Source: Candidatus Cloacimonadota bacterium (GTDB lineage: Bacteria > Muiribacteriota > UBA6191). Taken from it: a stretch of 56,271 bases of DNA. Positions 4,947-27,769 of this stretch are shown here, piece by piece. The notes below the pieces were generated by a model, which saw only the letters and a program-made list of their open reading frames with translations, ran no database searches and was not told the origin of the DNA. The DNA lies in contig JAGSHD010000009.1 of assembly GCA_023954715.1 (NCBI GenBank), positions 1 to 56,271 of the forward strand, read 5' to 3'. The position numbers and the translations under genes were made by a program. Each line of letters starts with the position of its first letter. Position 1 is the stretch's first letter.

Positions 4947-5615
4947 CTAGCACAATTTGCCATCACGGATTCGGATTACTTTTTTAGCCTTGTCTATGAC
5001 CATCTGATCATGACTAGAAAATAAAAAGGTGACTTCTTTTTCATTGTTAAGTCTTTGCATCAGGTCCATCAATTTATTGGCGGACTCCGAGTCTAAGTTT
5101 GCAGTAGGCTCATCTGCTAGTATTAATTTTGGTTCGTTAATCAGTGCTCTTGCCACAGCGACTCTTTGTTGTTGTCCACCGGATAACTCAGCTGGCATAC
5201 GAGCATGTAAGTCCTGTAAATCTAGTTCCGCAAGAATAGCAAATATTTTATCTTTATGTAGTTTTTCAGCAATACCTTGGATTTGTAAAATGAGCTGTAT
5301 ATTTTCATAAACTGTTAATACAGGTAATAGGTTATACGCTTGAAATATAAAACCAATCTTTTCTCGCCTTAGATCACTGAGTTGATGTTCGGATTTGTTT
5401 TGAGTGGGTTCACCATCAATAAAAACCTGGCCCTCACTTGGTTTATCTAAACCACCAATCAGATTTAAAAGAGTTGTCTTACCACTACCTGATGGACCAG
5501 CAATAACTGAAAAATCACCTTTATGAAGCTCCATAGATAATTGATCGACTGCTGTAACAGTCAATAAACCATTCTTATAAAATCTAGAAACTTTATCAAT
5601 TTTAACAACACTCAT
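4947..5615 (-). CDS. ABC transporter ATPase, MacB/LolD type
   Basis: A 222-residue cytoplasmic ATPase with Walker A GPSGSGKTT (residues 40-48), a Q-loop around FIFQAYNLLP, signature LSGGQQQR, Walker B plus D-loop LADEPTANLD, and the switch His in SSHD. Length and the compact LolD/MacB form fit ATPases that pair with FtsX-fold permeases and drive periplasmic mechanotransmission rather than substrate passage through the membrane. An AAAGGA sequence lies inside the end of the upstream permease gene; the ATG follows that stop by one nucleotide, so the two are translationally coupled. Partners are the two permeases just upstream. Confidence 0.92.
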   Translation of the reverse strand: MSVVKIDKVSRFYKNGLLTVTAVDQLSMELHKGDFSVIAGPSGSGKTTLLNLIGGLDKPSEGQVFIDGEPTQNKSEHQLSDLRREKIGFIFQAYNLLPVLTVYENIQLILQIQGIAEKLHKDKIFAILAELDLQDLHARMPAELSGGQQQRVAVARALINEPKLILADEPTANLDSESANKLMDLMQRLNNEKEVTFLFSSHDQMVIDKAKKVIRIRDGKLC

Positions 5616-5616
5616 G

Positions 5617-6843
5617 TTATTTCCTTTGCATAGCTTGGGCAGGCTCTATTGTAGTTGCTAAATAGGCAGGGTATATAGAGGATAAAATATTTATAATCAA
5701 CATGGATAAACAGATAAGAAGGTTTCCTTTAAGATTTAAGACCGTATAGATGATAGGATCGATCATGACTCCTGCTACATCCATATCCTTCATTACTTCA
5801 GAAAAGTCAATTCCATGGGTTGAAGTATAATAAGTCAATAGTAGTGAGATAATCATTCCTATAAATATAGCAATAAAACCTAGAATAAGTGCCTCTAAAA
5901 ACACGATCAAACGAATATAGGAGCTATTCATTCCAATTGCTCTTAACACGCCAAACTCTCTGGTTCTGTCCATGACACTCATAACCATAGTATTAATTGC
6001 ACCGATACCTACAATTAGCATTAAGAAGGTCCCCATCATGATACCGTTAGCGCGATCAATTTTGATTAAATCAAGTAAAGATGGCTGGGCCTCTTGCCAA
6101 GAAAATGCTTTAATTGGTGCTGGTATTTGTTGGGATAGAAGATTAAGATTATCTTTAATTTGTTCAAAGCTAGATAGGTGTATGGCGACTTCATGTACAC
6201 GGTCTTTAGATTGGATCAATTTTTGTACATTACTTAAATGAGTAATGATCGTTGTTTTATCTATATTACTTACGCCGGCTTTTATAATTCCACGAATACG
6301 AAACAGTTTTGAGTTAATTTCATCGTGATTACCTTTAGCCATAACTACAAACTTTTTACCCACTCCAAGAGACAACTCTTTGGCGAGTTTATAGCCTATC
6401 AAAACATCTTTTGAATTGTTTGGTCTAGGCCAATCACCATCGATGAGTACTTTGTCTTTAAGTAGGGGACTTATATTTCGCTCTTTTAAGATATCTAGTC
6501 CTAAAACGACACCTCCACTACTGTTTCGTGAAGATCGTATCAAAGAGGGTACATAGAGTCTTGGATAATACTTTTTGATGTCCTTGTTTAATAAGCTTTG
6601 TTTAACTAGCTGAAAATCAAAACTATCTTCTAGTTCTCTGCTTGATAAATAATTTGAATGATAGATACCAATATGACCGGATCCACTTTTGATCCCATTG
6701 TTGATCATCGCGTTATATGATCCTGTTTGCATATTATCCATAAAAGTTAACAAGATGATGCTACCAGCAATTGCAGCAATGCTTACAAAACTACGAGACT
6801 TGTTTCGAACGATATTTCTATAGGCAAGCTTAATCCAAAGCAT
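5617..6843 (-). CDS. FtsX/MacB-type ABC permease (second of pair)
   Basis: The start is taken at the ATG at 6843, which gives MLWIKLAYRNIVRNK, the usual N-terminus of this family; a longer frame to 6936 would run back through the end of the preceding gene. GGGAG lies just upstream, and the start overlaps the preceding stop as TAATG. The protein has about 408 residues: an N-terminal membrane helix, a large periplasmic domain of about 220 residues, then three C-terminal helices with the family motif DRTREFGVLRAIGM. It should pair with the upstream permease as a heterodimer, as LolC and LolE do. The substrate is unknown. Confidence 0.88.
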   Translation of the reverse strand: MLWIKLAYRNIVRNKSRSFVSIAAIAGSIILLTFMDNMQTGSYNAMINNGIKSGSGHIGIYHSNYLSSRELEDSFDFQLVKQSLLNKDIKKYYPRLYVPSLIRSSRNSSGGVVLGLDILKERNISPLLKDKVLIDGDWPRPNNSKDVLIGYKLAKELSLGVGKKFVVMAKGNHDEINSKLFRIRGIIKAGVSNIDKTTIITHLSNVQKLIQSKDRVHEVAIHLSSFEQIKDNLNLLSQQIPAPIKAFSWQEAQPSLLDLIKIDRANGIMMGTFLMLIVGIGAINTMVMSVMDRTREFGVLRAIGMNSSYIRLIVFLEALILGFIAIFIGMIISLLLTYYTSTHGIDFSEVMKDMDVAGVMIDPIIYTVLNLKGNLLICLSMLIINILSSIYPAYLATTIEPAQAMQRK

Positions 6844-8072
6844 TATCGATCTCCCATTACTTGATTGAGTGGAGTAGCAAGTAGTTTTATAGTCGGATAA
6901 ATGGTGGTTATAACTCCTAAAACCATCATGACGCATACTGGCAAAAACATGTTAAAATATGAAGGATAGGCTCGTATAAGGGGTTGAAAACTTGATCCTC
7001 CCCAAGCCAAAGGGCCAAAATAGCTAGATAAATCAATTGGATAATAATAAAGTAAAAAACTAAGAGATAGACCAATGACTCCGCCAATTATAGCCGCACT
7101 ACAACTTAAGAAAACTCCTTCTAGTGTCAGAATTTTTAATATACTAAATCGTGTGAGACCAATTGCTCTTAATGTGGCAAACTCGTATTTTCTCTCCATG
7201 ATGGACATAGACATTGTATTGGCACAAATTAAGATCACTGCAAAATAAAAGATACACAAGATAATGATTTGACTAATAATCCAAAAATCTAACGCTTGTG
7301 AGACTTGCTCCAAAATATCTCTCCAAGAGTCTACGTGATAATTTGTAGATAAATGTTGAAGCTCTTTTGCAATTTCTTTAGCCTCTAAAACTCTGTGTAT
7401 ACTCGCTGTATAATAGTGAGCTTGATCGTATAGACCTAAAATTTCTTGTACATCTTTTATATGAGCTAGAGCAAGTCGCGAGTCGCGTAAGTTGTCTGAT
7501 GTGGAGATAATTCCAGATACTATAAAAAGACCTGATGCTACAGCACCATAAGCTCCTTGACCCATCACTATAATTTCATCGCCTACTTTTGCTCTCAATG
7601 ATTTTGCTAACAACCTACCTATAACAAGTTTTTGTTGTGGTAGACTGCTGATATAGCTGCCTTTAATCACTGACTGATGTAGTTTGGTAACGGTGGCCTC
7701 TGATTTGGGAGAGATACCTAGTAACTCAGCTGGTACAGACCAAGACTTATCTTCTTTTTGGTGGCTAAAGAGCAGGTTACTCGTGATACGAGGTGATATT
7801 CCTTTAATCTTAGAGTAGTTAATAAAAGAGTTATCTATGGTATCAGAAACTGTATGATGGAGATCTTTTTTATCTTCATACTTTTGAGATGTAATTTTAA
7901 TGTGAGCATGAAAATAATCGGTGGATGACAAAATCATAGACCATAAAAATCCATCGTTAATGGATAGAGTAATCATCAATAAAAAAGTGGCTGCACTCAT
8001 GGCACTCATGGTTAGTAAGGTTCTGCGAGTATTTCGAAAAAGGTTTCGAAAGGCTAGCTTTACATTTAACAT
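6843..8072 (-). CDS. FtsX/MacB-type ABC permease (first of pair)
   Basis: A 409-residue permease with N-terminal MLNVKLAFRNLFRNTRR, one membrane helix, a periplasmic domain of about 200 residues, then three helices containing ERKYEFATLRAIGL, the coupling motif that contacts the ATPase. It is clearly paralogous to the following gene, with which it overlaps by 1 nt (TAATG). It starts 2 nt after the LolA-like gene's stop, with AAAGAGA as ribosome site. It lacks an MCP-like or peptidase domain, so it is a plain LolCDE/MacB-type subunit. Confidence 0.88.
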   Translation of the reverse strand: MLNVKLAFRNLFRNTRRTLLTMSAMSAATFLLMITLSINDGFLWSMILSSTDYFHAHIKITSQKYEDKKDLHHTVSDTIDNSFINYSKIKGISPRITSNLLFSHQKEDKSWSVPAELLGISPKSEATVTKLHQSVIKGSYISSLPQQKLVIGRLLAKSLRAKVGDEIIVMGQGAYGAVASGLFIVSGIISTSDNLRDSRLALAHIKDVQEILGLYDQAHYYTASIHRVLEAKEIAKELQHLSTNYHVDSWRDILEQVSQALDFWIISQIIILCIFYFAVILICANTMSMSIMERKYEFATLRAIGLTRFSILKILTLEGVFLSCSAAIIGGVIGLSLSFLLYYYPIDLSSYFGPLAWGGSSFQPLIRAYPSYFNMFLPVCVMMVLGVITTIYPTIKLLATPLNQVMGDR

Positions 8073-8074
8073 GA

Positions 8075-8812
8075 CTATCTCTTTTTAAGGTATCTAATAG
8101 AAAACTTAACTCTTTTTAAAGGTATATTCAGTTTGAGTTCTTTATAAATGATCTCGGTGTATTCATCTGGATTGTCCTTGGGTAGGATCATTAGATGAGT
8201 AGGAATATAGCGACCTTCGATAAGTTTGACGTCGCTTAGAGTCATTGTGCGGATAAGCTCCATGTCTTCATCAAAGTATTCTACTTTGCTAGCTATCTGC
8301 CTGGTGAGATCGAGATAATAAATAATTTTACCCCAAACTACTGCGGCTTCTTTTCTAGGAAGTGACTCAACTACAGCTTGATCTTTAGTTTTGCTTAATA
8401 CGCTAAATTGATATAGTTCATCAACTTTATCTGATTTGACCAAATCGTCGTTGGTAAAATGACTACCCATCCATGAATCACCCATTAAGGAGCTAGGTAT
8501 TTTGATGACACGATCTATCTTAGGTAGGTAGTTCCACATGTTTTTGTCAATTTTTAAAGAGGCAGTACCTTTCTCTTTCTTAGGCTCAATAATTTTCGTT
8601 AGAAACTTATCTCTTCCTTTTCCCCATGAGTTCATGGTTATAGAGCGTTTCCATGAGTCCTTTTTTATGTTCATTTGCATTACAGCAAAAGAAGTATCTG
8701 CTTGATATTGAGATTCAACTTTTTTAACTATGGATATAATAAAATCATCGTTTTCAGTTGAAGAGATAGTTGAAACTATTAAGATATAAAGTAGCAAAGA
8801 TAAAAATCTCAT
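8075..8812 (-). CDS. LolA-like outer-membrane lipoprotein-sorting family protein
   Basis: A 245-residue protein with a signal sequence (residues 1-18) followed by the fold seen in the LolA-like/DUF4292-type families, including the hallmark block GDSWMGSHFTNDDLVK near residues 115-130 and KEKGTASLKIDKNMW before it. These proteins form an open beta-barrel with a hydrophobic groove that carries a lipid or lipoprotein through the periplasm. It is the first of four genes with two permeases and an ATPase, so it may receive the cargo that the ABC machine releases and pass it to the barrel protein. It is not LolA itself by length or sequence. The cargo is inferred, not seen. Confidence 0.8.
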   Translation of the reverse strand: MRFLSLLLYILIVSTISSTENDDFIISIVKKVESQYQADTSFAVMQMNIKKDSWKRSITMNSWGKGRDKFLTKIIEPKKEKGTASLKIDKNMWNYLPKIDRVIKIPSSLMGDSWMGSHFTNDDLVKSDKVDELYQFSVLSKTKDQAVVESLPRKEAAVVWGKIIYYLDLTRQIASKVEYFDEDMELIRTMTLSDVKLIEGRYIPTHLMILPKDNPDEYTEIIYKELKLNIPLKRVKFSIRYLKKR

Positions 8813-11774: not shown

Positions 11775-12611
11775 ATGGAAACTATTTCTCAATATGCCCA
11801 AACTTATCGAGTTTTTTTTCGACTGATACCTATTATCATTGCGACAATTTTATGGTACTCCATAGCTTATAAGATGTATCCAATTATAAAAGATAATGCA
11901 TTAAATGAAAACTTAGAAAGAATGAAAAGGTCTTTTGGTAAGTCGGCTGGTAAAACATTGTTTTTCTTTTTTAAAGGGGTAGTACCTTTTGCTTTTGGAG
12001 CTGTTTTATACTCTTCGTTGTACTACATAGAAGATCCGATAAAGTTTACAGGAGAGCTTGTTCACTCGTTTCAAGAGAAACAAAACTCTGTGGATAAAGA
12101 AGAGGCTTTGAAGCCTTTAAGCTTTGATGGGAAATATGTTTTCTTTGGATTTTTGATATTGGGTATAACGCTTTCTCCTTTTGCGGTTCGAGAGCAATTG
12201 TCCTCTAAGTGGGAGATCAATATTTTGAAGGATTTAAATTCCACTAATGGTGAAAACGGTCCCTATATGTTTAAGAGGTATAGATCTAATCTGCAGACTC
12301 TGTATGGTGGAGGCTTACAATATTATCATCGTTTTCATCTTTTACGCTCAATGTACTATTTGATCAACAAACGAAATATGGATGCTAGAAATGCACTGTT
12401 TGAAACCATGGATTGCTGTGAAAATCACCCAGAGTATAAATATGTAGCTCAAAAATATTTGATATCAATTTTGCAAAATAGTGACCAACAAGAGCAAGCA
12501 CAAGAAATCAGTCTTCAACTACAAGATGTAAACTCTTTAAACCTAGAGTTAGTCAAGCCTTATATTGATCAAGACAAATTACAGTTTGAAGTACAAAAGG
12601 CTGATGTATGA
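11775..12611 (+). CDS. Motor-operon membrane protein, first gene (unknown)
   Basis: A 278-residue inner-membrane protein that I do not recognise. Hydrophobic segments are at about 14-36, 60-85 and 119-137, followed by a soluble C-terminal part of about 140 residues that looks helical and repeat-like (a TPR-type arrangement is possible). The segment between helices 2 and 3 would be periplasmic or cytoplasmic depending on orientation, which is not fixed. It is the first gene of the six-gene operon; its stop overlaps the next start as ATGA. AGGA stands 7 nt before its ATG. Position suggests an assembly or regulatory subunit of the channel encoded at 13057. Confidence 0.7.
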   Translation: METISQYAQTYRVFFRLIPIIIATILWYSIAYKMYPIIKDNALNENLERMKRSFGKSAGKTLFFFFKGVVPFAFGAVLYSSLYYIEDPIKFTGELVHSFQEKQNSVDKEEALKPLSFDGKYVFFGFLILGITLSPFAVREQLSSKWEINILKDLNSTNGENGPYMFKRYRSNLQTLYGGGLQYYHRFHLLRSMYYLINKRNMDARNALFETMDCCENHPEYKYVAQKYLISILQNSDQQEQAQEISLQLQDVNSLNLELVKPYIDQDKLQFEVQKADV

Positions 12612-13006
12612 GTAAATTAGTTTTACTATTGTTTTTGTGTGTAACGAGTCTTGTGTTTAGCATGTCTCCTCAAAGTGATCCTTGGTATAAAATTCATACT
12701 TTAGAGGATGCTATAACGGCGATGAAGATTCACAACGAAAAAAATGAACTTTACGACGGTTTATATGTTCTTCGAATATTGGTACTTAAAAATAAGTTCA
12801 AGAGTCTTAAGATGCAATATGTTTTAGCAACCCAGTACGAACGTATCGTAAAAGCATACCCAAATGACAAACATGCCAAGACTAATTTAAAACATAATTT
12901 ACAGGCAATTAAAAATGCCTTGAAGGGCAATAAATTAAACAAGAGTCAAAGAGACTTTTACTCTAAGTTTTATCAAAGATTGGCTCCAATTTATAACCGT
13001 AAGTAG
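12608..13006 (+). CDS. Small exported helical protein of the motor operon
   Basis: A 132-residue protein with a signal sequence (residues 1-18, cut near VFSMS). The remaining 114 residues are helical and basic with Tyr/Ala spacing that resembles one or two TPR-like units (VLATQYERIVKAYPNDKHA). It would therefore sit in the periplasm, alongside the OmpA-domain protein and the TamB-like protein of the same operon. Its ATG overlaps the previous stop by 4 nt. A gap of 50 nt with AGGAGA follows before the channel gene. No named family was recognised. Confidence 0.7.
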   Translation: MSKLVLLLFLCVTSLVFSMSPQSDPWYKIHTLEDAITAMKIHNEKNELYDGLYVLRILVLKNKFKSLKMQYVLATQYERIVKAYPNDKHAKTNLKHNLQAIKNALKGNKLNKSQRDFYSKFYQRLAPIYNRK

Positions 13007-13056
13007 ATTTAGAATAAACTTGATTTAGTTTTTAAATTAAGTAGGAGATATATACA

Positions 13057-14868
13057 ATGAGTTTTACTGACATAATGCATTTGCTGAAACCTTCAATGGA
13101 GCACGGAAACTACGTGTTCTTTTGGGTTATGGTACTTTTTTTAGTAATAAACCTGTTTCAATTGTTTAAAAAATATTCAATTGCCTCTGAAATTCAGCAA
13201 ATTCTAGATAAGAGTAAAGATAGTTCTTCAATTGATGAGGTCTATAAAGACTCTTGTTTGGATGATTTTTATTCTTCAAAAAGATTAACAGGTACAAGCT
13301 CTTCTGATTTTGATTACTCTTGTTCTATTCGATCTTTTCCAAAATCTATCGACTTGTTTCCTAACCTTTATATTAGTGTTGGTATTTTAGGGACTTTTGT
13401 TGGAATTGTATTAGGTTTAAAAGGCCTAGGAAATCAATTAGGAGATGTGGAGCAGTTATCAACGAGTATTCCGATTTTGTTGGATAGTATCTATTTAGCT
13501 TTTCGTACTTCTATTTGGGGAATCTTTCTTGGAAACATCGTATCCTTTTTAAGTAATACTGGAGATATGAAAATTGAGTCTTTGTTAAGTCAAGTAGATA
13601 CTCGTTTAAGTATACAGTTTTCTGACGAACTACAAAAATCAAATCAAATGGATCAAATGCTTGGTATTGTGAAAGAAATGAAAGAAGAAAGATCAAAGCT
13701 TTCAAAAGAGTTATCTACAACAATCTCTAGTGTTAGTACAAACTTTTCAGAAAACTTAGGTCAATTTTCGACCTTTCTTCAAAAAGAAGTTCAATCGATC
13801 ATTCAAAATATAGAGACAGACAAATCAGATAAAATATTGGCTGAGCTTGAAAAGTTTACAGCAAGTTTTTCCAATCAGTTTTTCAATGGTTTAGATGACT
13901 CAAGAAAGCAGTTTGGATCACAGTTAGATGACAATGTACAATCTTTGCAAAGTTCTCAGGATTCAATGATAAAAATCATTACAAACCTAGAAAAATCAGG
14001 TTCATTGGTGAATGAGCAATTAGAGTCTCAACTACGTCAAGCCAAAGAGATGCAAAGTCATGAAGATAGCTTCAAAACAATCACACAAGGTTTGAATCAA
14101 GTTTTAAATAACTTTGGAGAGTTTCAGTTAAACTATAAGGATATATTAGAAGGATTCTCTAGATCTAAAGATATGGAAAGAGAAAATATCTCTTTGAATC
14201 AAAAATACTTGGATACTATTGTTGTTGAAAATCAAAAGATTGTAGATAAATACGATCGCTCTAATAGTTCTATGTCAGAGCTTGGCAATCTTCTTTCTGG
14301 TATTCAATGTTCTTTTTCATTATACACAGAAAAACTAGACGAATCTGTCCAACTGATGACGCAACTGGTAGATAAAGAAAACTATTTAGTAGAGGACTTA
14401 GCAGGATTTCAAAACTCATTACGAGATAAATTTATTGAAATGGGTACTCTTTCTGAAAATTTAAACTTTGTAAGTACATCATTAGTAGAAGGATTAAAGC
14501 ATTCAAAAGAAGTGAATGCGCAGGTGTCTTCTTCACTAATTAACAGTATCACGATTGCAGAAAACTCTCGTTCATGGCTTAATTCAGCTGAACATTTAAC
14601 ACTTCGCATGACAAATCTATCAGATGAGTTCACCAAACTTTATCAAGAGAATAAGGTTCTTGTAAGTGATACTAGTAATAACTTCAAGGCTTTAGGTCAG
14701 GACTGTAATCAACTTTTAAATAAGTTTCCACAAAAAATGGAAAGTTCCTATTTAGAGTTTGATCGAAACATGGCTGAGATATGTAGACACTTAAATCAAA
14801 CTGTTACCCTATTTAAAAGTGCTGTTCAAGAGGCAGAAGATTCTTTTAATAGCCTTTCAAGAAAGTAG
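13057..14868 (+). CDS. ZorA/MotA-like proton-channel protein with long cytoplasmic tail
   Basis: A 603-residue inner-membrane protein of the MotA/TolQ/ExbB fold. Membrane helices are at about 18-38, 101-121 and 141-165. The channel motifs are GILGTFVGIVLGL (109-121) and AFRTSIWGIFLGN (148-160), with T151/S152 as likely pore-lining residues. Residues 170-603 form a long, heptad-patterned helical tail rich in Ser, Asn and Gln, as in ZorA of Zorya anti-phage systems (MotA and ExbB lack it). In Zorya five such chains surround two ZorB chains and the tail reaches far into the cytoplasm. The partner here is the next gene, 11 nt downstream. No ZorC-, ZorD- or ZorE-type effector is recognised, so it should be called ZorA-like, not ZorA. 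Confidence 0.82.
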   Translation: MSFTDIMHLLKPSMEHGNYVFFWVMVLFLVINLFQLFKKYSIASEIQQILDKSKDSSSIDEVYKDSCLDDFYSSKRLTGTSSSDFDYSCSIRSFPKSIDLFPNLYISVGILGTFVGIVLGLKGLGNQLGDVEQLSTSIPILLDSIYLAFRTSIWGIFLGNIVSFLSNTGDMKIESLLSQVDTRLSIQFSDELQKSNQMDQMLGIVKEMKEERSKLSKELSTTISSVSTNFSENLGQFSTFLQKEVQSIIQNIETDKSDKILAELEKFTASFSNQFFNGLDDSRKQFGSQLDDNVQSLQSSQDSMIKIITNLEKSGSLVNEQLESQLRQAKEMQSHEDSFKTITQGLNQVLNNFGEFQLNYKDILEGFSRSKDMERENISLNQKYLDTIVVENQKIVDKYDRSNSSMSELGNLLSGIQCSFSLYTEKLDESVQLMTQLVDKENYLVEDLAGFQNSLRDKFIEMGTLSENLNFVSTSLVEGLKHSKEVNAQVSSSLINSITIAENSRSWLNSAEHLTLRMTNLSDEFTKLYQENKVLVSDTSNNFKALGQDCNQLLNKFPQKMESSYLEFDRNMAEICRHLNQTVTLFKSAVQEAEDSFNSLSRK

Positions 14869-14879
14869 AGGGGTATATT

Positions 14880-16118
14880 TTGAGTTCGTTGAAGAGAAGT
14901 AGAGCACAAGAAAACTACTGGGTATCATTTAGTGATTTAATGTCTGGATTGCTATTTGTCTTTATTTTGTTATTTGTTTTAACTTTGATTGTAAATAAAG
15001 TTTCTTTACGGCAAAAAGAAGAAATCGCTATAAAAACCTCTGAACAACTAAAAGAAGAAAAAGAAAAGTATCATAAAAAAACTATGGAGCTTTTGCAGAT
15101 TCGACTGGAGTTATCAGACAAAGAAAAAGCTCTGTTAGTTATAACAGAGCTCCAAGAAAAAAAATCAACAGAGCTTGGCCAAACTAAAGAAAGCTTAGAA
15201 AAGCGAGAGCTTGAAGCTGCTAATCTTAGAAAAAACATTGAAGATCAATTGTTAGAGCTAAACCGCTTAAAAGAGCTACAAATATTAAAAGATGATCAAT
15301 TAAAATCTTTAGAAATATCTCAAAATAAAAAACAAAAAGAGCTGGACTCTTTGCGTAAAAGCTTAAAATCTCAGGCAGATAATTTGAGTAAAACTTCTGA
15401 ATTATTAAAGTCTAAAGAGATAGAACTTCTTCAATCTAGTGTGCATTTAAAAGATAAAGAAAGTGCCTTAAACTCGCTACAAACAAATCTGAGCAAAAAA
15501 GAAACACAGGTTTTTTCACTAAAAGAAATTGTAGAAAAAAATAAAAAAGAGCTTAACGATGTGAAGCAAAAAGTAGAAGAGATCTTAGGAGTAAAAAAGA
15601 AAATTATTTCTTATATGCAACAAGAATTTTCTAAACAGGGTGTCAAAGTGCAGATTGATCCCTTAACAGGAGATATTCAGTTTCCGGCTAAGATTTTGTT
15701 TGCATATAATGAGAGTACTTTAAAACAAGAGGGTAAAAACGCACTACTGAAGTTTTTCCCTGTTTACTCTAAATTATTGATTGAGCATGGGTATATTTCA
15801 GCACATATTGCTGAGATCATCATCGAAGGTCATTCTGATCCAGAAGGTGGTTATTTATACAACTTAAATTTATCACAAAAGCGGGCTTTGTCAGTAGTTG
15901 AATTTTTAAACTCTGACCACTATAAAGAGTCTCCTGAGGACATTCGACTTCAAAAAATATTAACAGCCAATGGTCGATCTTTTGTTGAGCCAGTTTTAGA
16001 TAAAAAAACAAAAAAGGTAAATTTCGAAAAAAGTAGAAGAGTTGTGTTTAAATTTCGTTTAAAAAATGAGTTACGATTGAAGGATATTAAAAGTAGTTTA
16101 GAGGAGATGACCAAGTGA
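14880..16118 (+). CDS. ZorB/MotB-like protein: TM-Asp, long coiled coil, OmpA domain
   Basis: A 412-residue protein. A short cytoplasmic N-terminus leads into one membrane helix (20-38) preceded by SFSDLMSGLLFVF, where D19 occupies the place of the proton-carrying Asp of MotB/ZorB. Residues about 40-245 are one highly charged coiled coil. Residues about 255-390 form an OmpA-type peptidoglycan-binding domain with IIIEGHSDPEGG, NLNLSQKRALSVVEF and SRRVVFKF. Translation begins at TTG 14880, placed by AGGGG 7 nt upstream. MotB and ZorB have much shorter linkers. The neighbouring ZorA-like gene supplies the channel. Its stop overlaps the next start (GTGA). Confidence 0.85.
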   Translation: MSSLKRSRAQENYWVSFSDLMSGLLFVFILLFVLTLIVNKVSLRQKEEIAIKTSEQLKEEKEKYHKKTMELLQIRLELSDKEKALLVITELQEKKSTELGQTKESLEKRELEAANLRKNIEDQLLELNRLKELQILKDDQLKSLEISQNKKQKELDSLRKSLKSQADNLSKTSELLKSKEIELLQSSVHLKDKESALNSLQTNLSKKETQVFSLKEIVEKNKKELNDVKQKVEEILGVKKKIISYMQQEFSKQGVKVQIDPLTGDIQFPAKILFAYNESTLKQEGKNALLKFFPVYSKLLIEHGYISAHIAEIIIEGHSDPEGGYLYNLNLSQKRALSVVEFLNSDHYKESPEDIRLQKILTANGRSFVEPVLDKKTKKVNFEKSRRVVFKFRLKNELRLKDIKSSLEEMTK

Positions 16119-17314
16119 AGTCAGAAGAGTACTCCCTAGAAACTATAAAAACTCCTTGTTTAAATAACTTATTGGCAGACCTTCGTAGTGAGTCTATCAT
16201 TGAAGTTATGAACGTTGGTTTTGTAGATTTAGAAATCGATGAAGTTAAGACTCTATATCAGTGTGTACAATCTGGGTCTAGTTTATCATCACGAGATCGA
16301 TCTAGAATATTCGACGCGATTTATTTTTTAAAGGTACATGTAGATGATTATCCACATTTAAAATCAATGTACTATGATTTTTTACAATATTTACTTGGGA
16401 CTTTAGTATCTGGTGACTTTGTGAAGGTGATCCAAGTTTTCTTATATCAACCTAATATCAAAGAGTCCAAAGATCTACTAGATCGATTTATTCAACGATT
16501 TCCAAGTATGATCCCCGATGTTTTCTCTTATTTAAAACTTTTAAAAAGAGGTGCATGTACTTCAGAGTCAATTGCTGATTTATTGATCAAATTGGGAGAT
16601 GATTTAGATACCATTGACTCGGTATTAAATCGTCTACAATTAAAAATAGATATCCCATTTTCGCAGATGATTTTAAAGAGTTTTTATGTAAATATAAATA
16701 AAAAAAAGTATCAATTGTTTTCAAAAGCATCTACTCGTATGAGCGATGATGTTTTTAAAAAGTCGGTGATACACATATTACAATATCAAGAAGATATATT
16801 AGATAAATTATCAGTCGGGTTTACAGAGTTTGATGTATCAATTTTACAATGTTTGGTAGATCGTTTGGGTTTGGTTCCAGCTGTTCGATTAAATAGTCCT
16901 TGGAGCTTTATTCCTGCAAAATTATTTTTTCAAGTACAAGTATGGCAAACTTTCTTAAGAAGTCAGCTTTTTTTTAAAAATACAAATGATTTTGGCACTA
17001 GAGTTGGGGTATGGCAAAAGTTACTCCAAGAAAAACTAGTTATTAATTTTCAAGAAGTTCCAGAAAACGAGCAATTTGTTTTATGGGGAGAAAGCTATTT
17101 AATTCTTGAACATAAAGACTTTTCTATACCTTTAAAAGTATATAAGTTTTCAGAGATCTCTAATGCTGATATCGCATCTTTTGAAGACTTTTCCGGAGAA
17201 ATTATTGAGATAAAAAGGGACTCTAAGTTTCCTTTTGAGTGGGAGCGAAAGTTACGAAAAATTATCAACAACGAAAACTTCTTTGAAAAGTTTAGGGAGA
17301 TGATCGGTGTTTAA
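16115..17314 (+). CDS. Motor-operon soluble protein, 399 residues (unknown; ZorC-like not excluded)
   Basis: A soluble, helix-rich protein with no signal or membrane segment, hence cytoplasmic. It begins at GTG 16115, overlapping the previous stop by 4 nt, with GAGGAG 8 nt upstream. The C-terminal part (about 290-395) contains aromatic-rich blocks (VWQKLLQEKL, FVLWGESYLIL, FPFEWERKLRKII). The position after a ZorB-like gene, and this W-rich C-terminus, invite comparison with ZorC and its EH-signature domain, but I cannot see a convincing paired Glu/His signature. It could contact the cytoplasmic tail of the ZorA-like protein. No function is claimed. Confidence 0.7.
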   Translation: MKSEEYSLETIKTPCLNNLLADLRSESIIEVMNVGFVDLEIDEVKTLYQCVQSGSSLSSRDRSRIFDAIYFLKVHVDDYPHLKSMYYDFLQYLLGTLVSGDFVKVIQVFLYQPNIKESKDLLDRFIQRFPSMIPDVFSYLKLLKRGACTSESIADLLIKLGDDLDTIDSVLNRLQLKIDIPFSQMILKSFYVNINKKKYQLFSKASTRMSDDVFKKSVIHILQYQEDILDKLSVGFTEFDVSILQCLVDRLGLVPAVRLNSPWSFIPAKLFFQVQVWQTFLRSQLFFKNTNDFGTRVGVWQKLLQEKLVINFQEVPENEQFVLWGESYLILEHKDFSIPLKVYKFSEISNADIASFEDFSGEIIEIKRDSKFPFEWERKLRKIINNENFFEKFREMIGV

Positions 17315-20108
17315 AAAAGTTTGTATAAGTCTCATTTATCTTACATTAATTTTGACTTTTACATTAAGTGCAATATTTTTCTATATTTTTACCATACAGT
17401 CAGGAGAGTTTAATAAAATTGATTTACTTGAATATGGTTTAAAAGTAGATCGAGTGCAATTACTCCCATGGAAACTCTTTGAGGTTAAAAACTTTTCTAT
17501 AGCTAAAGATGGCTTAGATGTTTATATGGCTAATCTTAGATTGGAGTGGTCCCTAGAGTCTTTAAGTTCATTTCATGTAGAAAAGTTGTTTGTAACAAAA
17601 GTTTTAGTTAAGAGACTTCCTGAGTCTAAAAAGCCAGTGGTCCAAGAGAAGCAAGATCCCATAGATATAGAGAGTTTGTTAAAAATAAAAATACCATTGC
17701 ATATTGATCATATCCAAGTAGATGATGTGAAAGTCTTGCCTTTTGAGATTGATTTAAGTTTTAAGGCGTCTCAATCCGGATTAGACTTTCATTTAAAAGA
17801 GTTATATTTAAAGCAAAAAGAAAACATGGTTTTGTTGCAAAACTTAAAACTTCAAGTGCAACAATTGACGCATTTGACCATCGAAAAAGTCGAAGTAGAG
17901 ATGCTCACGAAAAAGTTGGTGACTCTTTCAAAACTTGATACTAAAATAGATTTAGTCCACTTAATTCAAGATAAAAACTTGGGGCAAACTTCAATTGATA
18001 ATATTATAGTTCATTCATTACCTGCATCTCCTAGTCAAACAGCTGTAGCTTCATCTGACAAAGAAAGTATTACAAGTAGTCCTCAAAATGACTTTAACTT
18101 AGAGGAGTTTAAAACAAGGATAGATGGAATGATTCCAAAGGAGTTGCCGGTTTCTGCACTTGAATTTTCTATTCGATCTATTGCTTTAGCTTTTATATCA
18201 AACTCCTTAAGTAACTTAAACTTAAATTTGGCTCAATCCAACCTTGTTTCCTTTGCTTGTAAAATTGGCAATGATAATGGTGGAAACCTAAAACTACAAA
18301 CAAAGTTAGGATTAAAGAAAAGAAGCTTAAAGGTAGACTTGAATGTACATCATTGGCTTCAAGATTTAGAGTATGAAGTGCATAATGCCAAATTAGACTT
18401 ACATGGGAGTCTGAATATTTTGTTTGAAGACTTTAAAGATAGAGGTTCAAAATCTAATTTGGATTTTATAGGCCTATATAGTCAAGGTGATTTGGTGGCG
18501 CTAACTTTGCCTTTAACTATTCGTTTAAATCAAGGCTTATTAAATGTAGCTTCTCCTGAAATAAAGTCATCTATACAAGGGCAAGCCGTGACTATGAGCT
18601 TTTTAAGTGACTTACGTATTCACGAAAACTTAGATCTAGACTTACAGCGTTTACTTATATCAAAGTTTTCTGTAACGGACTTAGCAACTATTGATTCTAT
18701 CTTAGTTAAAGCAAGCTCTAAAGATATGTTTCAAAATTTGGATGCTAGCTTAAATATAGATAAGATCACAGAGTTTGTTTCTCCTGTTAAAGGTAAAATT
18801 AAATCATTCAGCGCAAAAGCAAAGATAAAAGAGCTCAAAGATCTTGATGCTGGATTAGAAATATCAGCTATAGGCTCCAGTATTATGGATTTGAGACTTA
18901 TAGAAAGTAAAATATCAGGTAATCTAAAGAAGTTTAATACTCGTACTTTTATTAGAGATTTCTCATCAGAAGATATGGGTATACTTACTATGATTAATCT
19001 AAAGTCCGAAGGTAGTTTGTTAAAACAGAGCGCTACTTACTCTATTTTAGGATATAAAATTAAGGATAGTACATATCCTGAAATATCAGGCTCAATATCT
19101 TTTAAAGATAAATTATTAAAAGGTGTTACAAATTTATCTTTTGCTAACTTAAAGCCAATGGATTTTCAGTCTTTTACTAATGTTCCAGCAAAATTGAAAA
19201 TGAAGTCCACAAGCGAAGAAAGTGTTGAAGTTTCAACAGAGCAAACTACATTACCTATTCGTATTAAATGGAAAGTACAACCTTTGAAAGATCAAATAAT
19301 TCATATAGTTGACGAAAAATATAGTCTAGATGTTCAAACCGAAATGGAGTATGACTCTGAAAATAATATATCAGGAACGATCCGTATTTTGGATGGAACT
19401 TTAAAATACTCCGATTATGATTTAAGAGTTTTAGATACTGGATATTTAACTTTTCATCAAAAAGCTGGAGACACTGAAAAATCTGTAAAGTCGGTCAAAC
19501 TAAGCACTACAACCACAAATTACATGGATCAGTTAGCCTATATGACGGCTCAAGATAAAGTTGCAAAAAGCTTCATCTTAAAAGATGGCATAGAAGTCCT
19601 TTTAAAACTAGGTATGAAATGGCAAGACAAGGATATTGTAGTTAAAGTCTCCGGAATATACCCTGACATGAAGATTCGATTATTTGATGATTTAGGCAAA
19701 GAAATCGAAGGTGGATTTGTCGGTTTGTTAAAAGGTGCTACCAACATAGGTGGAGGAGAAGAATCAAACGAAGATCTATCTAAGGTTTTAGGTGATCAGG
19801 TTCTTTCTATAGCTAACTCTAAAGTTGATAACTACTTTAATGAAAAGTTCAAAAAGCAGGGGATCAAGATAAAAACAGATTTCAAGCCAGGGGAAACGCA
19901 AGGATTTGGAATTCAAAAGAAGCTTGGACATCGAATCCTCTTAGATTATTATAGAAGTCAAGACCAGCGTGATGATCAAGTCACAGAAATGCGTAAAATG
20001 CAGTATCTACTTAAGGGTAGCTCTAGTTTATATATACGGCAAGATACTCAGAGCATAGCTAGTGAATCGGATATGTCATTAGGTGTTCAACGCAGAATCA
20101 AATTTTAA
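17307..20108 (+). CDS. TamB/AsmA-like bridge protein (translocation/lipid-transfer family)
   Basis: A 933-residue protein with one N-terminal membrane helix (5-30), then a very long run of short beta strands typical of the AsmA/TamB/YhdP group. These form a hydrophobic groove that spans the periplasm and carries phospholipids or helps barrel assembly. The C-terminal third resembles the TamB domain: GTLKYSDYDLRVLDTGYLTF, then LKLGMKWQDKDIVVKVSG, then a final barrel-like stretch ending MSLGVQRRIKF. It is shorter than E. coli TamB (about 1260). GTG at 17307 overlaps the preceding stop by 8 nt, with GGGAGA upstream. Being last in the motor operon implies a shared job. Confidence 0.8.
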   Translation: MFKKVCISLIYLTLILTFTLSAIFFYIFTIQSGEFNKIDLLEYGLKVDRVQLLPWKLFEVKNFSIAKDGLDVYMANLRLEWSLESLSSFHVEKLFVTKVLVKRLPESKKPVVQEKQDPIDIESLLKIKIPLHIDHIQVDDVKVLPFEIDLSFKASQSGLDFHLKELYLKQKENMVLLQNLKLQVQQLTHLTIEKVEVEMLTKKLVTLSKLDTKIDLVHLIQDKNLGQTSIDNIIVHSLPASPSQTAVASSDKESITSSPQNDFNLEEFKTRIDGMIPKELPVSALEFSIRSIALAFISNSLSNLNLNLAQSNLVSFACKIGNDNGGNLKLQTKLGLKKRSLKVDLNVHHWLQDLEYEVHNAKLDLHGSLNILFEDFKDRGSKSNLDFIGLYSQGDLVALTLPLTIRLNQGLLNVASPEIKSSIQGQAVTMSFLSDLRIHENLDLDLQRLLISKFSVTDLATIDSILVKASSKDMFQNLDASLNIDKITEFVSPVKGKIKSFSAKAKIKELKDLDAGLEISAIGSSIMDLRLIESKISGNLKKFNTRTFIRDFSSEDMGILTMINLKSEGSLLKQSATYSILGYKIKDSTYPEISGSISFKDKLLKGVTNLSFANLKPMDFQSFTNVPAKLKMKSTSEESVEVSTEQTTLPIRIKWKVQPLKDQIIHIVDEKYSLDVQTEMEYDSENNISGTIRILDGTLKYSDYDLRVLDTGYLTFHQKAGDTEKSVKSVKLSTTTTNYMDQLAYMTAQDKVAKSFILKDGIEVLLKLGMKWQDKDIVVKVSGIYPDMKIRLFDDLGKEIEGGFVGLLKGATNIGGGEESNEDLSKVLGDQVLSIANSKVDNYFNEKFKKQGIKIKTDFKPGETQGFGIQKKLGHRILLDYYRSQDQRDDQVTEMRKMQYLLKGSSSLYIRQDTQSIASESDMSLGVQRRIKF

Positions 20109-20901
20109 ATTGAATCGATGCTCCAAAGCTTAAACCTTGATCTTTTAAGGCATACATAAAGTTTTGAACTGGATACAAATGATCTTTGGCAAAAGTGTAG
20201 GATCCATTCAATCGAAGTGGACGATTGACAAGCGGAATCTTCTTAAGTAATTGATAGCTGAGTGTTAATTGTAAATAGCCTTGAAACTTTGGGTCGTACT
20301 CATTACTAAATGCCGTTTTCGTATAGGCTTTAGTATTGGCATCAGGTACAAATGTTTTCACTCCCAATTCAGGTTGAAAAAAGAGCCTTTTACTTAGATA
20401 CTTCTGCAAGCCAAAAGAAAAGCTGATATTTGTGAGTTTGTTTCTATCATAAGGTTTCTTTTGAGAAAATTGAGCTATAGAGGAGTCATAATAGCTTAAT
20501 AGATTATGCTCCTTCCATTGAGTATAAGATATTCGATTAGAGATGGTTGTTTGGTATCCATACAGTTTAGAGATTCGTGGTTGGATGACTCTAAAGCGCT
20601 CTCTTTTTTTATATTCTAATCTAAGTTTTTTACCAGAGTATCTATTATCACGTTTACTAGTATGGTCTATATGATCATTGGGTTTATAGTAGATGTATTT
20701 TTCAGTTTCTTCGGGTAAATCAGGCTTTGAAAAATCAACTTTAGGATCGGCCATCCAAAATTTGTGTTTCCTTTTTTGTTGAACTACTGGTGCTTTTACA
20801 ACAGTTCTCTTTAAGAGTACTTCATCCCAATATTGTCTGTTTTGACTGGAGCAATGAGATAGAAGGATTAGTAAAAATAGTATTGAAAATAGTTTAAACA
20901 T
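20098..20901 (-). CDS. Possible lipoprotein with C-terminal barrel-like domain
   Basis: Starts considered are ATG 20910 and ATG 20901; the latter has GGTGA just upstream but close, so the choice is unsure. A hydrophobic N-terminus ends LLSHCSSQ; the Cys could be lipidated but His at -1 is atypical. A basic region (about 70-100) follows. From about residue 130 the chain shows amphipathic strands (SFGLQKYLSKRLFFQPELGV, YLQLTLSYQLL) and ends LSFGASIQFKI, as in small outer-membrane barrels. It converges on the TamB-like gene with an 11-bp overlap of coding ends. It may be an outer-membrane partner, but it is not in the operon. Confidence 0.6.
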   Translation of the reverse strand: MFKLFSILFLLILLSHCSSQNRQYWDEVLLKRTVVKAPVVQQKRKHKFWMADPKVDFSKPDLPEETEKYIYYKPNDHIDHTSKRDNRYSGKKLRLEYKKRERFRVIQPRISKLYGYQTTISNRISYTQWKEHNLLSYYDSSIAQFSQKKPYDRNKLTNISFSFGLQKYLSKRLFFQPELGVKTFVPDANTKAYTKTAFSNEYDPKFQGYLQLTLSYQLLKKIPLVNRPLRLNGSYTFAKDHLYPVQNFMYALKDQGLSFGASIQFKI

Positions 20902-21032
20902 AATCACCATTTCGGGTAGATATATATTTTGCTAAATAATGGGAACTTTTATATGTTTAGAATATTTTATACAGAAAACAAAAGAATAAATAATTGGATA
21001 GAATTTGTTGTCAGACCTATGGGCTAGCATAC

Positions 21033-26244: not shown

Positions 26245-26931
26245 TTAGTTAATAACTGAAAGAGATTGTTTATTAGTATCAATATGTATAAGCTCAACAA
26301 TAATGAGCAAGATGCATTCAAGTAGATTATTTAGTTTTAAATCATCTCCACCTAGAAGACCATTAGAGTTGTATAAACAGAAATGTTTATAACGTTTTTT
26401 AATTTGAATCACAATGGATAAGACAGTGGGAGTCCGTATATTTAAACGCAGTTGTATTTGTAAAGGATGTGTTTTACTTGCAATATGAAGAACATTATTG
26501 ATAGTCACCCATTGATCTTTGGTGCTTAGTAAATGAAACTCACTTAGATAGGTCTGAATCAATGAAGCTACATAGGATATATCCACCACTTTTGTTGAAC
26601 TTATAGGGGTAGTATTTGTTATTTGATCTATCAAGCCAAAAATTGACCTTGATCTATGATTTACGATGATGAAGTTTAAGCAATCAGGCAAACAAACTAA
26701 ATTTTCATCTACTAAGAAATACTGGTCGGTAGGCTTAACTACTAATTGAATACTTTTGGATTTACTGTTAAAGCTAACTTTAGCCTCATCTTGTTCTATA
26801 TGTATAGAGGGTGCTTGCTTAGCAATTAAATCTAAATCAATAAATTGGGCTTGACTAAAACAGATGAACTCCCAAATCTGTGTGAAAGATAGTTTGTACT
26901 TATGGCAATAAGGTCGAAGTTGATTAGACAC
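26245..26931 (-). CDS. Unknown protein coupled to phhA
   Basis: A 228-residue protein without signal or membrane segments that I do not recognise. It contains several beta-rich blocks (IHIEQDEAKVSFNSKSKSIQ, QIQLRLNIRT) and a hydrophobic C-terminal helix (LLECILLIIVELIHI). Its GTG start at 26931 lies inside the last codons of phhA (8-nt overlap) and has no ribosome site of its own, so it depends on translation of phhA. A pterin recycling or aromatic-metabolism role is only a guess from position; it does not look like pterin-4a-carbinolamine dehydratase, which is about half this size. Confidence 0.6.
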   Translation of the reverse strand: MSNQLRPYCHKYKLSFTQIWEFICFSQAQFIDLDLIAKQAPSIHIEQDEAKVSFNSKSKSIQLVVKPTDQYFLVDENLVCLPDCLNFIIVNHRSRSIFGLIDQITNTTPISSTKVVDISYVASLIQTYLSEFHLLSTKDQWVTINNVLHIASKTHPLQIQLRLNIRTPTVLSIVIQIKKRYKHFCLYNSNGLLGGDDLKLNNLLECILLIIVELIHIDTNKQSLSVIN

Positions 26932-27769
26932 TTAAATTATATTTATCACAGAGATAATTAGATATTTCATTTAAAGCATCATCCAGAGATTTACTAACGA
27001 ATAATAAGGGCTGTTTGATCATTGGATTATAATCAGTAGCAATGATTTTTTGAATATCAAAATCTATATGATCTACTTGAGAAGGATCTACACATCGAGT
27101 TAGGTCAGAGTAGGATGATATGTTGCCTGCTCCATAAGTCTTTATTTTGTTATTCTCGTAGCATAGACCGTATTCGAAGGTAAACCAATAGATTCTTTCG
27201 AGCTCAATGATATCTTCATCAGGGCATATAGTAGCAGCTTGGGCCATAACGGTTGAAGTTTTTACGACATTCTCACACATCAACAATGGAGTATGACCAA
27301 GTAAATCATGGCAGATATCTGGTTCAGGGGTAAAATCTGGGCAAGATGAGTGTCTAATATACTGAGTAGAGTAAAACTGTTTTTTAGCTAATGATGCAAA
27401 GAAGTGTCTAGACTGGATCAACCCCGCCACAGGAACCATTTGTACTCCAGTTTTTGGAGTCAAAATATTGTTAACTTCTATTAGAGTAGGGATTTTATCT
27501 GGATTAAAATTGAGTTCTTTCATTCCATCCATAATTTGGGATACAGCATTAGTGTCTGCTACTTGCATTACTCGTTGATAGACGTGTTCCCATATTTTAT
27601 CTTGTACAGGGTCATAATTGATTATGGGTATCTCTACATCCTTTCCATCGAAGACGTCTTCCCAATATTTACTAGCTTTTGCAGCTATAGAATCTCTTTG
27701 GTCTCTATATTCTGGGTCTCTAAAGCCTGGATGATCATTATCTAATGCAACTAAAAACTCTGCTTTCAT
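26924..27769 (-). CDS. phhA: Phenylalanine-4-hydroxylase
   Basis: A 281-residue bacterial-type aromatic amino acid hydroxylase that makes tyrosine from phenylalanine with O2 and a tetrahydropterin. The iron facial triad is clear: H154 and H159 in CHDLLGHTPLL and E199 in FTFEYGL. The regulatory ACT domain of animal enzymes is absent, as is normal in bacteria. No pterin dehydratase is adjacent; the unknown gene overlapping its 3' end takes that place. Only AGG precedes the ATG. It functions in the cytoplasm, in tyrosine supply or phenylalanine catabolism. Confidence 0.93.
   Translation of the reverse strand: MKAEFLVALDNDHPGFRDPEYRDQRDSIAAKASKYWEDVFDGKDVEIPIINYDPVQDKIWEHVYQRVMQVADTNAVSQIMDGMKELNFNPDKIPTLIEVNNILTPKTGVQMVPVAGLIQSRHFFASLAKKQFYSTQYIRHSSCPDFTPEPDICHDLLGHTPLLMCENVVKTSTVMAQAATICPDEDIIELERIYWFTFEYGLCYENNKIKTYGAGNISSYSDLTRCVDPSQVDHIDFDIQKIIATDYNPMIKQPLLFVSKSLDDALNEISNYLCDKYNLSV

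Follow-up and report, generated by a model that had tools for sequence, protein, structure and literature searches.

Among the closest described relatives of the locus reported here is the type I Zorya phage-defence system, in which ZorD is the SNF2-type helicase-nuclease. The known output of ZorA is its cytoplasmic tail, and TolQR, ExbBD, and MotAB belong to the same 5:2 ion-driven engine class as ZorAB. Passages of one report describe ZorAB as a 5:2 motor (PMC11890865). Transfer by bridges of the AsmA/TamB family in E. coli is described, in passages of two others, as diffusive and not energy-dependent (PMC8593681, PMC11226057). We analyzed a window of 56,271 nucleotides, meaning the whole stretch of DNA under study, from a Candidatus Cloacimonadota bacterium (contig JAGSHD010000009.1, assembly GCA_023954715.1). 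The genome, denoted G000, measures 4.58 Mb and is 86% complete; other genomes and loci are denoted by G and L numbers. Six forward-strand open reading frames (ORFs) spanning positions 11775-20108 were found to combine a ZorA/ZorB-type motor pair with a probable divergent ZorC and a probably TamB-like protein. We tentatively read this operon as a Zorya-derived motor cassette that would act as one envelope machine driven by proton-motive force instead of as a phage-DNA cutter.

Analysis of ORFs and Pfam matches bore out the original prediction of a six-gene operon, including its coordinates, its successive junctions (-4, +50, +11, -4, and -8 nt), the channel motifs of gene 3, and the Asp19 (D19) and OmpA domain of gene 4. 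Gene 3 carries the MotA/ZorA channel motifs GILGTFVGIVLGL (residues 109-121) and AFRTSIWG (residues 148-155), and about 430 residues trail the latter, a tail that is cytoplasmic in ZorA. Its best PADLOC profile was ZorA2 (7.5e-15; best ZorA1 profile, 5.6e-12). It matched NCBIfam ZorA at 4e-14 (52.5 bits, under the curated cut-off of 100 bits) and a solved ZorA chain (PDB 8vvi) at 6.4e-07. When gene 3 was included in a five-ZorA profile, the best match was 8vvn (3.8e-37, residues 37-692 of 696). Gene 4 matched PADLOC ZorB1 at 1.2e-66, its best ZorB profile, a solved ZorB chain at 2.3e-12, and NCBIfam ZorB at 57.5 bits, under the curated cut-off of 400 bits. Its OmpA domain was recognized by Pfam (3.5e-08) and matched the Pal and OmpA models of NCBIfam weakly. 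D19 immediately precedes the sole transmembrane helix (residues 20-38) and is invariant across four aligned ZorBs, as are D320 and R335; from MotB and OmpA we take these to be the motor Asp and peptidoglycan-binding residues. Judged by sequence, genes 3 and 4 are a ZorA/ZorB-type motor pair, as had been proposed. They differ from TolQR, ExbBD, and MotAB in being nearest to ZorAB by PADLOC profile and PDB sequence, and a flagellar MotAB identity was considered and rejected.

Between its transmembrane helix and its OmpA domain, gene 4 has a predicted coiled coil of 206 proline-free residues (about 45-250), in which one heptad position is 83% hydrophobic, a level reached by none of 5000 shuffles. 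The ortholog in the second genome of the genus, G001, is longer by exactly 7 residues in this region, which is one heptad, and the register is kept. Were it helical throughout, the coil would span about 30 nm, calculated at 1.5 A per residue. In the ZorBs of the genus, the EGH motif of the OmpA domain begins at residue 315-322. The corresponding starts are 140-193 in eight measured ZorC-adjacent ZorB entries, L016 and L052 being one and the same locus, and 137-205 once clade mates and G002 are added. ZorBs under 60 bits, among them L021 of G038, were left out of this survey. A long ZorB is not unique to the genus: the median start over 87 entries, duplicates included, was about 211, and L027 and L034 had values of 312 and 299.

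We constructed phylogenetic trees of ZorB and ZorA. The main ZorB tree, from which duplicates, weak matches, and the fused L090 were dropped, placed the genus in a 10-row clade (support 99/96) with all four ZorABCD systems sampled; L017, which has a ZorC, L093, L101, and L102 also belong to it. When three long rows and 37 Bacillota loci were further dropped, the genus remained in a 9-row set with support 95/92. The branch leading to the ZorB of the genus is long, at 2.3-2.7 changes per column. The ZorA tree, built without L021, the same 37 Bacillota loci, and rows lacking a long ZorA, placed the genus with L101 and L102 at 94/81 and with L040, L086, L093, and L005 at 90/85. Kinship with ZorABCD systems is supported by the ZorB sequences and only partly by those of ZorA.

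Gene 5 likely descends from ZorC, and is probably a divergent ZorC of the EH_signature type without the EH histidine. It has no transmembrane helix by hydropathy and no Pfam match. Seven aligned ZorCs (A6) share P16, F290, R298, W302, Y305, E332, F333, Y341, L366, H378, and W388 (L033 numbering). Gene 5 and its two orthologs keep FF286, R296, W300, E332, Y343, and W376 at matching distances; they lack the Tyr (Y305) and Phe (F333) invariant in A6 and the His before the final Trp. A ZorC residue pattern written without the His matched 3 of 3 gene 5 orthologs. Among controls it was found in 2 of 1199 decoys and in 6 of 20,000 shuffles, and among ZorCs in 7 of the 9 in A8 and in 1 of the 16 from the protein search. 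Its specificity is optimistic, because the spacing in gene 5 was already known when the pattern was devised. When 419 distinct proteins of comparable length were compared with nine ZorCs by single-sequence hhalign, the gene 5 orthologs ranked 1st, 2nd, and 4th; the 421 entries of the set include two copies of gene 5 orthologs. The best of these alignments paired residues 147-343 with 152-348 at near-zero offset; the gene 5 of the window itself scored 23.7, slightly under one decoy at 24.8. A full-length hidden Markov model (HMM) of nine ZorCs was weakly positive: of 1887 shuffles, 3 scored as high as P0004, 53 as high as P0003, and 9 as high as the window protein.

Other comparisons with ZorC gave less. 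The window protein and P0003 ranked under some decoys in hmmsearch with ZorCs, the profile-profile comparison of gene 5 with ZorC was negative (probability 1.1%), and so was an HMM of the ZorC C-terminus only, with 36, 174, and 183 of 1676 shuffles equalling the scores of the gene 5 orthologs. A 24-sequence profile of mostly long-form ZorCs had P0003, at 3rd of 419, as the sole gene 5 ortholog within its top ten and, against the A4 profile, gave E 0.0067 and a probability of 5.7%. An AlphaFold2 model of gene 5 from three sequences was of low confidence (predicted local distance difference test, pLDDT, 50.5) and found nothing in Foldseek at E<=0.001; its helix-strand-strand-strand succession over residues 293-344 would fit the ZorC motif. 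The best ZorB matches beyond the genus lie in genomes G030 and G010, and both of these have a gene of about 400 amino acids directly 3' of ZorB. The gene in G010 matched EH_Signature under the cut-off (E 1.2e-04) and its counterpart in G030 gave no EH_Signature match, while both fit one ZorC HMM. The original prediction had recognized no ZorC or ZorD effector. The operon indeed has no ZorD, but gene 5 occupies the ZorC slot and keeps most of the ZorC C-terminal pattern. Because gene 5 is ZorC-like, the identification of the fifth protein as a known Zorya effector, which that prediction had named as evidence against itself, has in part come about.

Gene 6 is probably TamB-like at its C-terminus, weakly but specifically. 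A 160-residue C-terminal profile was built from 14 of 16 TamB loci of the phylum (L114 and L118 dropped). It ranked the two gene 6 orthologs 1st and 2nd at 11.9 and 10.4 bits, with alignments running to their last residue; the best of 1208 decoys scored 6.9 bits. The TamB/AsmA likeness first proposed for the whole protein thereby gains weak support, confined to this stretch; the Pfam TamB model (PF04357) did not match gene 6 even at E 10. By hydropathy, gene 6 has one N-terminal transmembrane helix (residues about 5-23). Residues 501-933 are 58% identical between the orthologs, versus 38% for residues 1-500. A protein search with gene 6 returned only itself among 7997 scored candidates, its profile gave one chance-level match (E 1.4) against PDB sequences, and its AlphaFold2 model from two sequences, predicted to be mostly strand at very low confidence (pLDDT 29.2), found nothing in Foldseek at E<=0.001. 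Compared with the TamB, YhdP, and YdbH bridges, gene 6 has a predicted N-terminal anchor in common, and probably a TamB-like stretch that ends at the last residue; it differs in lying under Pfam detection, in its length (933 versus 1399 amino acids for the canonical TamB of G000), and in its linkage to an ion-driven motor. That canonical TamB exceeds the Pfam cut-off, is 68% identical to its counterpart in G001, and is encoded elsewhere in the genome, so that gene 6 is an extra copy. No Omp85 (TamA-type) Pfam match was found among the scanned neighbours of the operon. ZorD stands directly 3' of ZorC in L033, L040, L065, and L086, and it is this slot that gene 6 fills. The ZorD HMM had no match in the window; the best SNF2 matches in G000 and G001 lie on other contigs and align to just the helicase part of the ZorD query, at about residues 412-892.

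The operon was present in both genomes of the genus examined. All six genes and the convergent gene downstream occur in the same order in G001, with protein identities of 47-82%. Gene 6 was the least conserved at 47%, versus 72-82% for the motor genes; gene 5 (72.5%) was level with gene 3 (71.8%). The predicted linkage of the motor to the TamB-like gene held in this co-occurrence check. Full-length gene 3 matches were found in 2 of 56 genomes, with a partial match (1.7e-11) in G002. Gene 6 was found in 2 of the 56 and, as a two-row profile, in 2 of 39 genomes of the phylum. Genes 1 and 5 were likewise found in 2 of these 39; gene 1 was thus genus-restricted in the sample, and a protein search with gene 5 returned two relatives besides itself, which added a third record. 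Among the 39 phylum genomes, genes 1, 5, and 6 were not found beyond those of the genus. Across the phylum, loci with a ZorC have a patchy distribution (G002, G010, G030, and G038). An EH_Signature search matched G002 and G038, with G022 under the cut-off, and a ZorC and a ZorD match share one contig in G002. A ZorC search across 39 genomes of the phylum of G045 found nothing. Where other phylum genomes had both, TamB and ZorB matches lay on different contigs, which are often short.

We examined other ZorAB loci from a ZorB scan, taking the best 80 of at least 392 relatives, of which 79 were non-self (L024-L102). Among these, ZorC was found in 6 and ZorD in 4, with several loci ending at contig ends; many of the remainder are Bacillota ZorAB pairs without ZorC or ZorD. 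A census of the next gene covered 68 of the 79, nearly all from Bacillota, after 11 without an ORF at the match were dropped. The gene after ZorB belonged to one family in 5 of the 68 loci, and its three tested members were FtsW/RodA (SEDS) proteins. In 13 of the 68, a small protein family stood directly after ZorB; each of the four members inspected begins with a hydrophobic N-terminal segment. These stand-alone Bacillota pairs resemble the operon in setting ZorAB beside an envelope protein without ZorD; they differ in that no TamB-like or ZorC-like gene was found there and in that most fall in other ZorB clades.

The likeness of the operon to type I Zorya lies in the order of ZorA, ZorB, and probable ZorC, in ZorB1 as the best profile for gene 4, and in the grouping of gene 4 with the four sampled ZorABCD systems. 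It differs in lacking ZorD and the EH histidine of gene 5, in the TamB-like gene occupying the ZorD slot, in its two extra envelope-type genes upstream, in its longer ZorB coil, and in ZorA2 as the best profile for gene 3. We infer descent from a ZorA-ZorB-ZorC-ZorD cassette that lost ZorD and the EH histidine and gained genes 1 and 2 (membrane/periplasmic) and the bridge gene 6, the six products acting together with their output at the envelope. The absence of ZorD from the operon keeps a non-nuclease reading alive, and a probable TamB-like bridge in its slot suggests that a defence-type motor was likely put to envelope work. The long ZorB, the dedicated bridge, the membrane or signal-like segments of genes 1 and 2, the Lol-type and MscS neighbours, and the precedent of the Bacillota ZorAB-SEDS loci are consistent with such a role. 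Protons passing D19 would turn the ZorA ring around the ZorB dimer, whose coiled coil, some 30 nm long were it entirely helical, would carry the OmpA domains deep into the periplasm. The motion of the ring or of ZorB might be passed to, or gated by, a TamB-like groove reaching the outer membrane, a coupling that would power or gate the movement of lipid or of outer-membrane cargo. Regulation of the motor from the cytoplasm might fall to the ZorA tail and the ZorC-like gene 5 product. The more specific proposal, that this is the first ion-powered AsmA/TamB-type bridge, with a nuclease-less Zorya motor using the proton-motive force to drive or gate transfer of lipids or outer-membrane proteins along a dedicated TamB-like groove and the long coiled coil of ZorB serving as a trans-periplasmic stator, is unlikely as it stands.

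Several observations weigh against the envelope reading. The ZorC-bearing L036 and L052 fall in another ZorB clade and the ZorBs of L021 and G002 far outside, while the ZorA tree agrees only partly and does not place the genus with L033 and L065. The motor type is mixed, with a type II best profile (ZorA2) for gene 3 and ZorB1 for gene 4, and in single-sequence PDB searches both came closest to 8vvi, a type II ZorAB complex, 8vvn being a type I ZorA according to passages of PMC11890865. The TamB assignment of gene 6 rests on 10-12 bits, and a 350-residue TamB profile failed to separate it from decoys. Both structure models are poor, and no contact between motor and bridge was shown. A ZorC-like gene 5 as conserved as ZorA, together with a retained ZorA tail, points to a cytoplasmic output. 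The whole operon was seen in only one other genome, where the upstream synteny was not seen: the gene for a 656-amino-acid protein that lies upstream in the window is on another contig in G001, and an AAA-ATPase/PDDEXK_9 gene stands upstream of the operon instead. Non-envelope neighbours (NT5C, GNAT, and an aromatic hydroxylase) are also present in the window. Finally, in 2 of the 5 SEDS-type loci the following gene is very large, and in L099 it encodes a DUF4011 helicase with an MTES_1575 nuclease-like domain; an envelope partner of ZorAB therefore does not exclude defence.

The strongest competing explanation, which we consider doubtful though still serious, is a diverged Zorya-type phage defence for diderm cells. 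Phage entry would be sensed or answered by ZorAB together with the ZorC-like protein. The TamB-like protein and genes 1 and 2 would provide either a sensing arm extending to the outer membrane or an effector acting on membranes, and the nuclease would be missing, replaced, or encoded at another site. The grouping of gene 4 with ZorABCD systems, the conserved gene 5, the retained tail of about 430 residues in gene 3, and the fast evolution of gene 6 relative to the motor (47% versus 72-82%) fit such a system, as does the helicase gene with a nuclease-like domain beside the ZorAB-SEDS locus L099. Passages of PMC8565338 also describe type III Zorya as using ZorF and ZorG in place of ZorC, ZorD, and ZorE. 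However, there is no ZorD in the operon, the best SNF2 matches cover only part of the ZorD query from other contigs, and gene 5 lacks the EH histidine. No PADLOC match was found among 10 genes scanned (nine window neighbours and the one upstream of the operon in G001), and judged on these ten the operon does not lie in a defence island. For those ten genes this supports the original prediction, which had placed the locus among core genes. The operon is also kept in both genomes of the genus, in contrast to the scattered occurrence of ZorC-bearing loci across the phylum.

We consider it unlikely that gene 6 is a bystander, an extra TamB paralog that landed downstream and is co-transcribed with a ZorABC-like cassette without any mechanical link. 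The much faster divergence of gene 6, the restriction of the linkage to one genus and two whole loci, and the separate contigs of TamB and ZorB in other phylum genomes (contigs often short) would suit this explanation, but gene 6 overlaps gene 5 by 8 nt, the order is kept in both genomes, and gene 6 was found only where the motor is (2 of 39). A Tol/Ton-like envelope-maintenance motor, acting in constriction or in peptidoglycan or outer-membrane tethering with the ZorB coil as main output and gene 6 as accessory, is improbable: the long coil and the SEDS-family neighbours of ZorAB in Bacillota suit it, but no TolA-, TonB-, or Pal-like partner was recognized among the six proteins by Pfam, PADLOC, or NCBIfam.

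The remaining features of the locus and of related loci are listed in Table 1. Hydropathy places transmembrane helices of gene 1 at residues 13-31, 61-79, and 120-138, giving two to three in all, since the second was not seen at the same position in the ortholog. By the positive-inside rule, its C-terminal domain of about 135 residues is predicted to be cytoplasmic. The product of the convergent downstream gene has a lipobox-like N-terminus by eye, which the ortholog lacks, and a barrel-like C-terminus, also by eye; it has paralogs elsewhere and no Pfam match, and is a possible candidate for an outer-membrane partner. The envelope-type neighbours of the operon are a LolA-like protein, two FtsX-type permeases with an ABC ATPase, and MscS.

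Another OmpA-domain gene in G000 (C35), encoding a protein of 901 amino acids with a signal peptide, was considered as a second ZorB and rejected. Gene 4 matches the proteins of about 900 amino acids in L018 and L019 at 4.4e-12 and 1.7e-10, and their gene adjoins one for a signal-peptide-like protein of about 1000 amino acids. The ZorAB-SEDS arrangement may be an undescribed system, no literature search aimed at it having been made.

Table 1 Coordinates of the operon genes, neighbouring genes, and features of related loci.
Feature	Location	Strand	Description
Gene 1	11775..12611	+	278 amino acids (aa); no Pfam, PADLOC, or NCBIfam match
Gene 2	12608..13006	+	132 aa; predicted small periplasmic protein with N-terminal hydrophobic/signal-like segment
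Gene 3, ZorA-like	13057..14868	+	603 aa; matched in PADLOC, NCBIfam, and PDB
Gene 4, ZorB-like	14880..16118	+	412 aa; D19, one transmembrane helix, heptad coiled coil, OmpA domain
Gene 5, probable divergent ZorC	16115..17314	+	399 aa; directly 3' of ZorB
Gene 6, probable TamB-like C-terminus	17307..20108	+	933 aa; N-terminal transmembrane anchor
Convergent downstream gene	20098..20910	-	270 aa; kept beside the operon in G001
Lol-like lipoprotein-sorting cluster	4947-8812	-	LolA-like protein, two FtsX/MacB-type permeases, ABC ATPase; opposite strand to the operon
Biopterin-dependent aromatic amino acid hydroxylase	26924-27769	-	Pfam 3.6e-70
Gene 2 ortholog	L004 13115-13516		59% identity
Genus protein of about 900 aa	L018 9377-12082; L019 7028-9745		conserved, probably secreted; C-terminal ZorB-like OmpA domain
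SEDS-type gene after ZorB	L049 5538-7670; L067 10778-12748; L071 10779-12719		
SEDS-type gene after ZorB	L072 10771-12774; L099 10809-12878		
Small family after ZorB	L043 10902-11447; L045 2703-3215; L062 7109-7606; L064 11020-11529; others		Bacillota; four inspected members of 165-181 aa; probable membrane anchor
Gene in effector slot after Anoxybacillus ZorAB	L102 2714-4177		protein with DUF697-like and PLD-like matches

A motor (ZorAB or similar) joined with an AsmA/TamB bridge was not found in literature titles and abstract openings, a scope that mostly excludes subscription papers. If the envelope reading is true, the pairing of a motor with a dedicated bridge in one operon would offer a testable case of powered or gated bridge transfer. 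It would also mean that a defence-type motor has been re-used for envelope work, mirrored by the ZorAB-SEDS pairs of Bacillota, and therefore that not all ZorAB calls made by defence-finding tools would represent phage defence.

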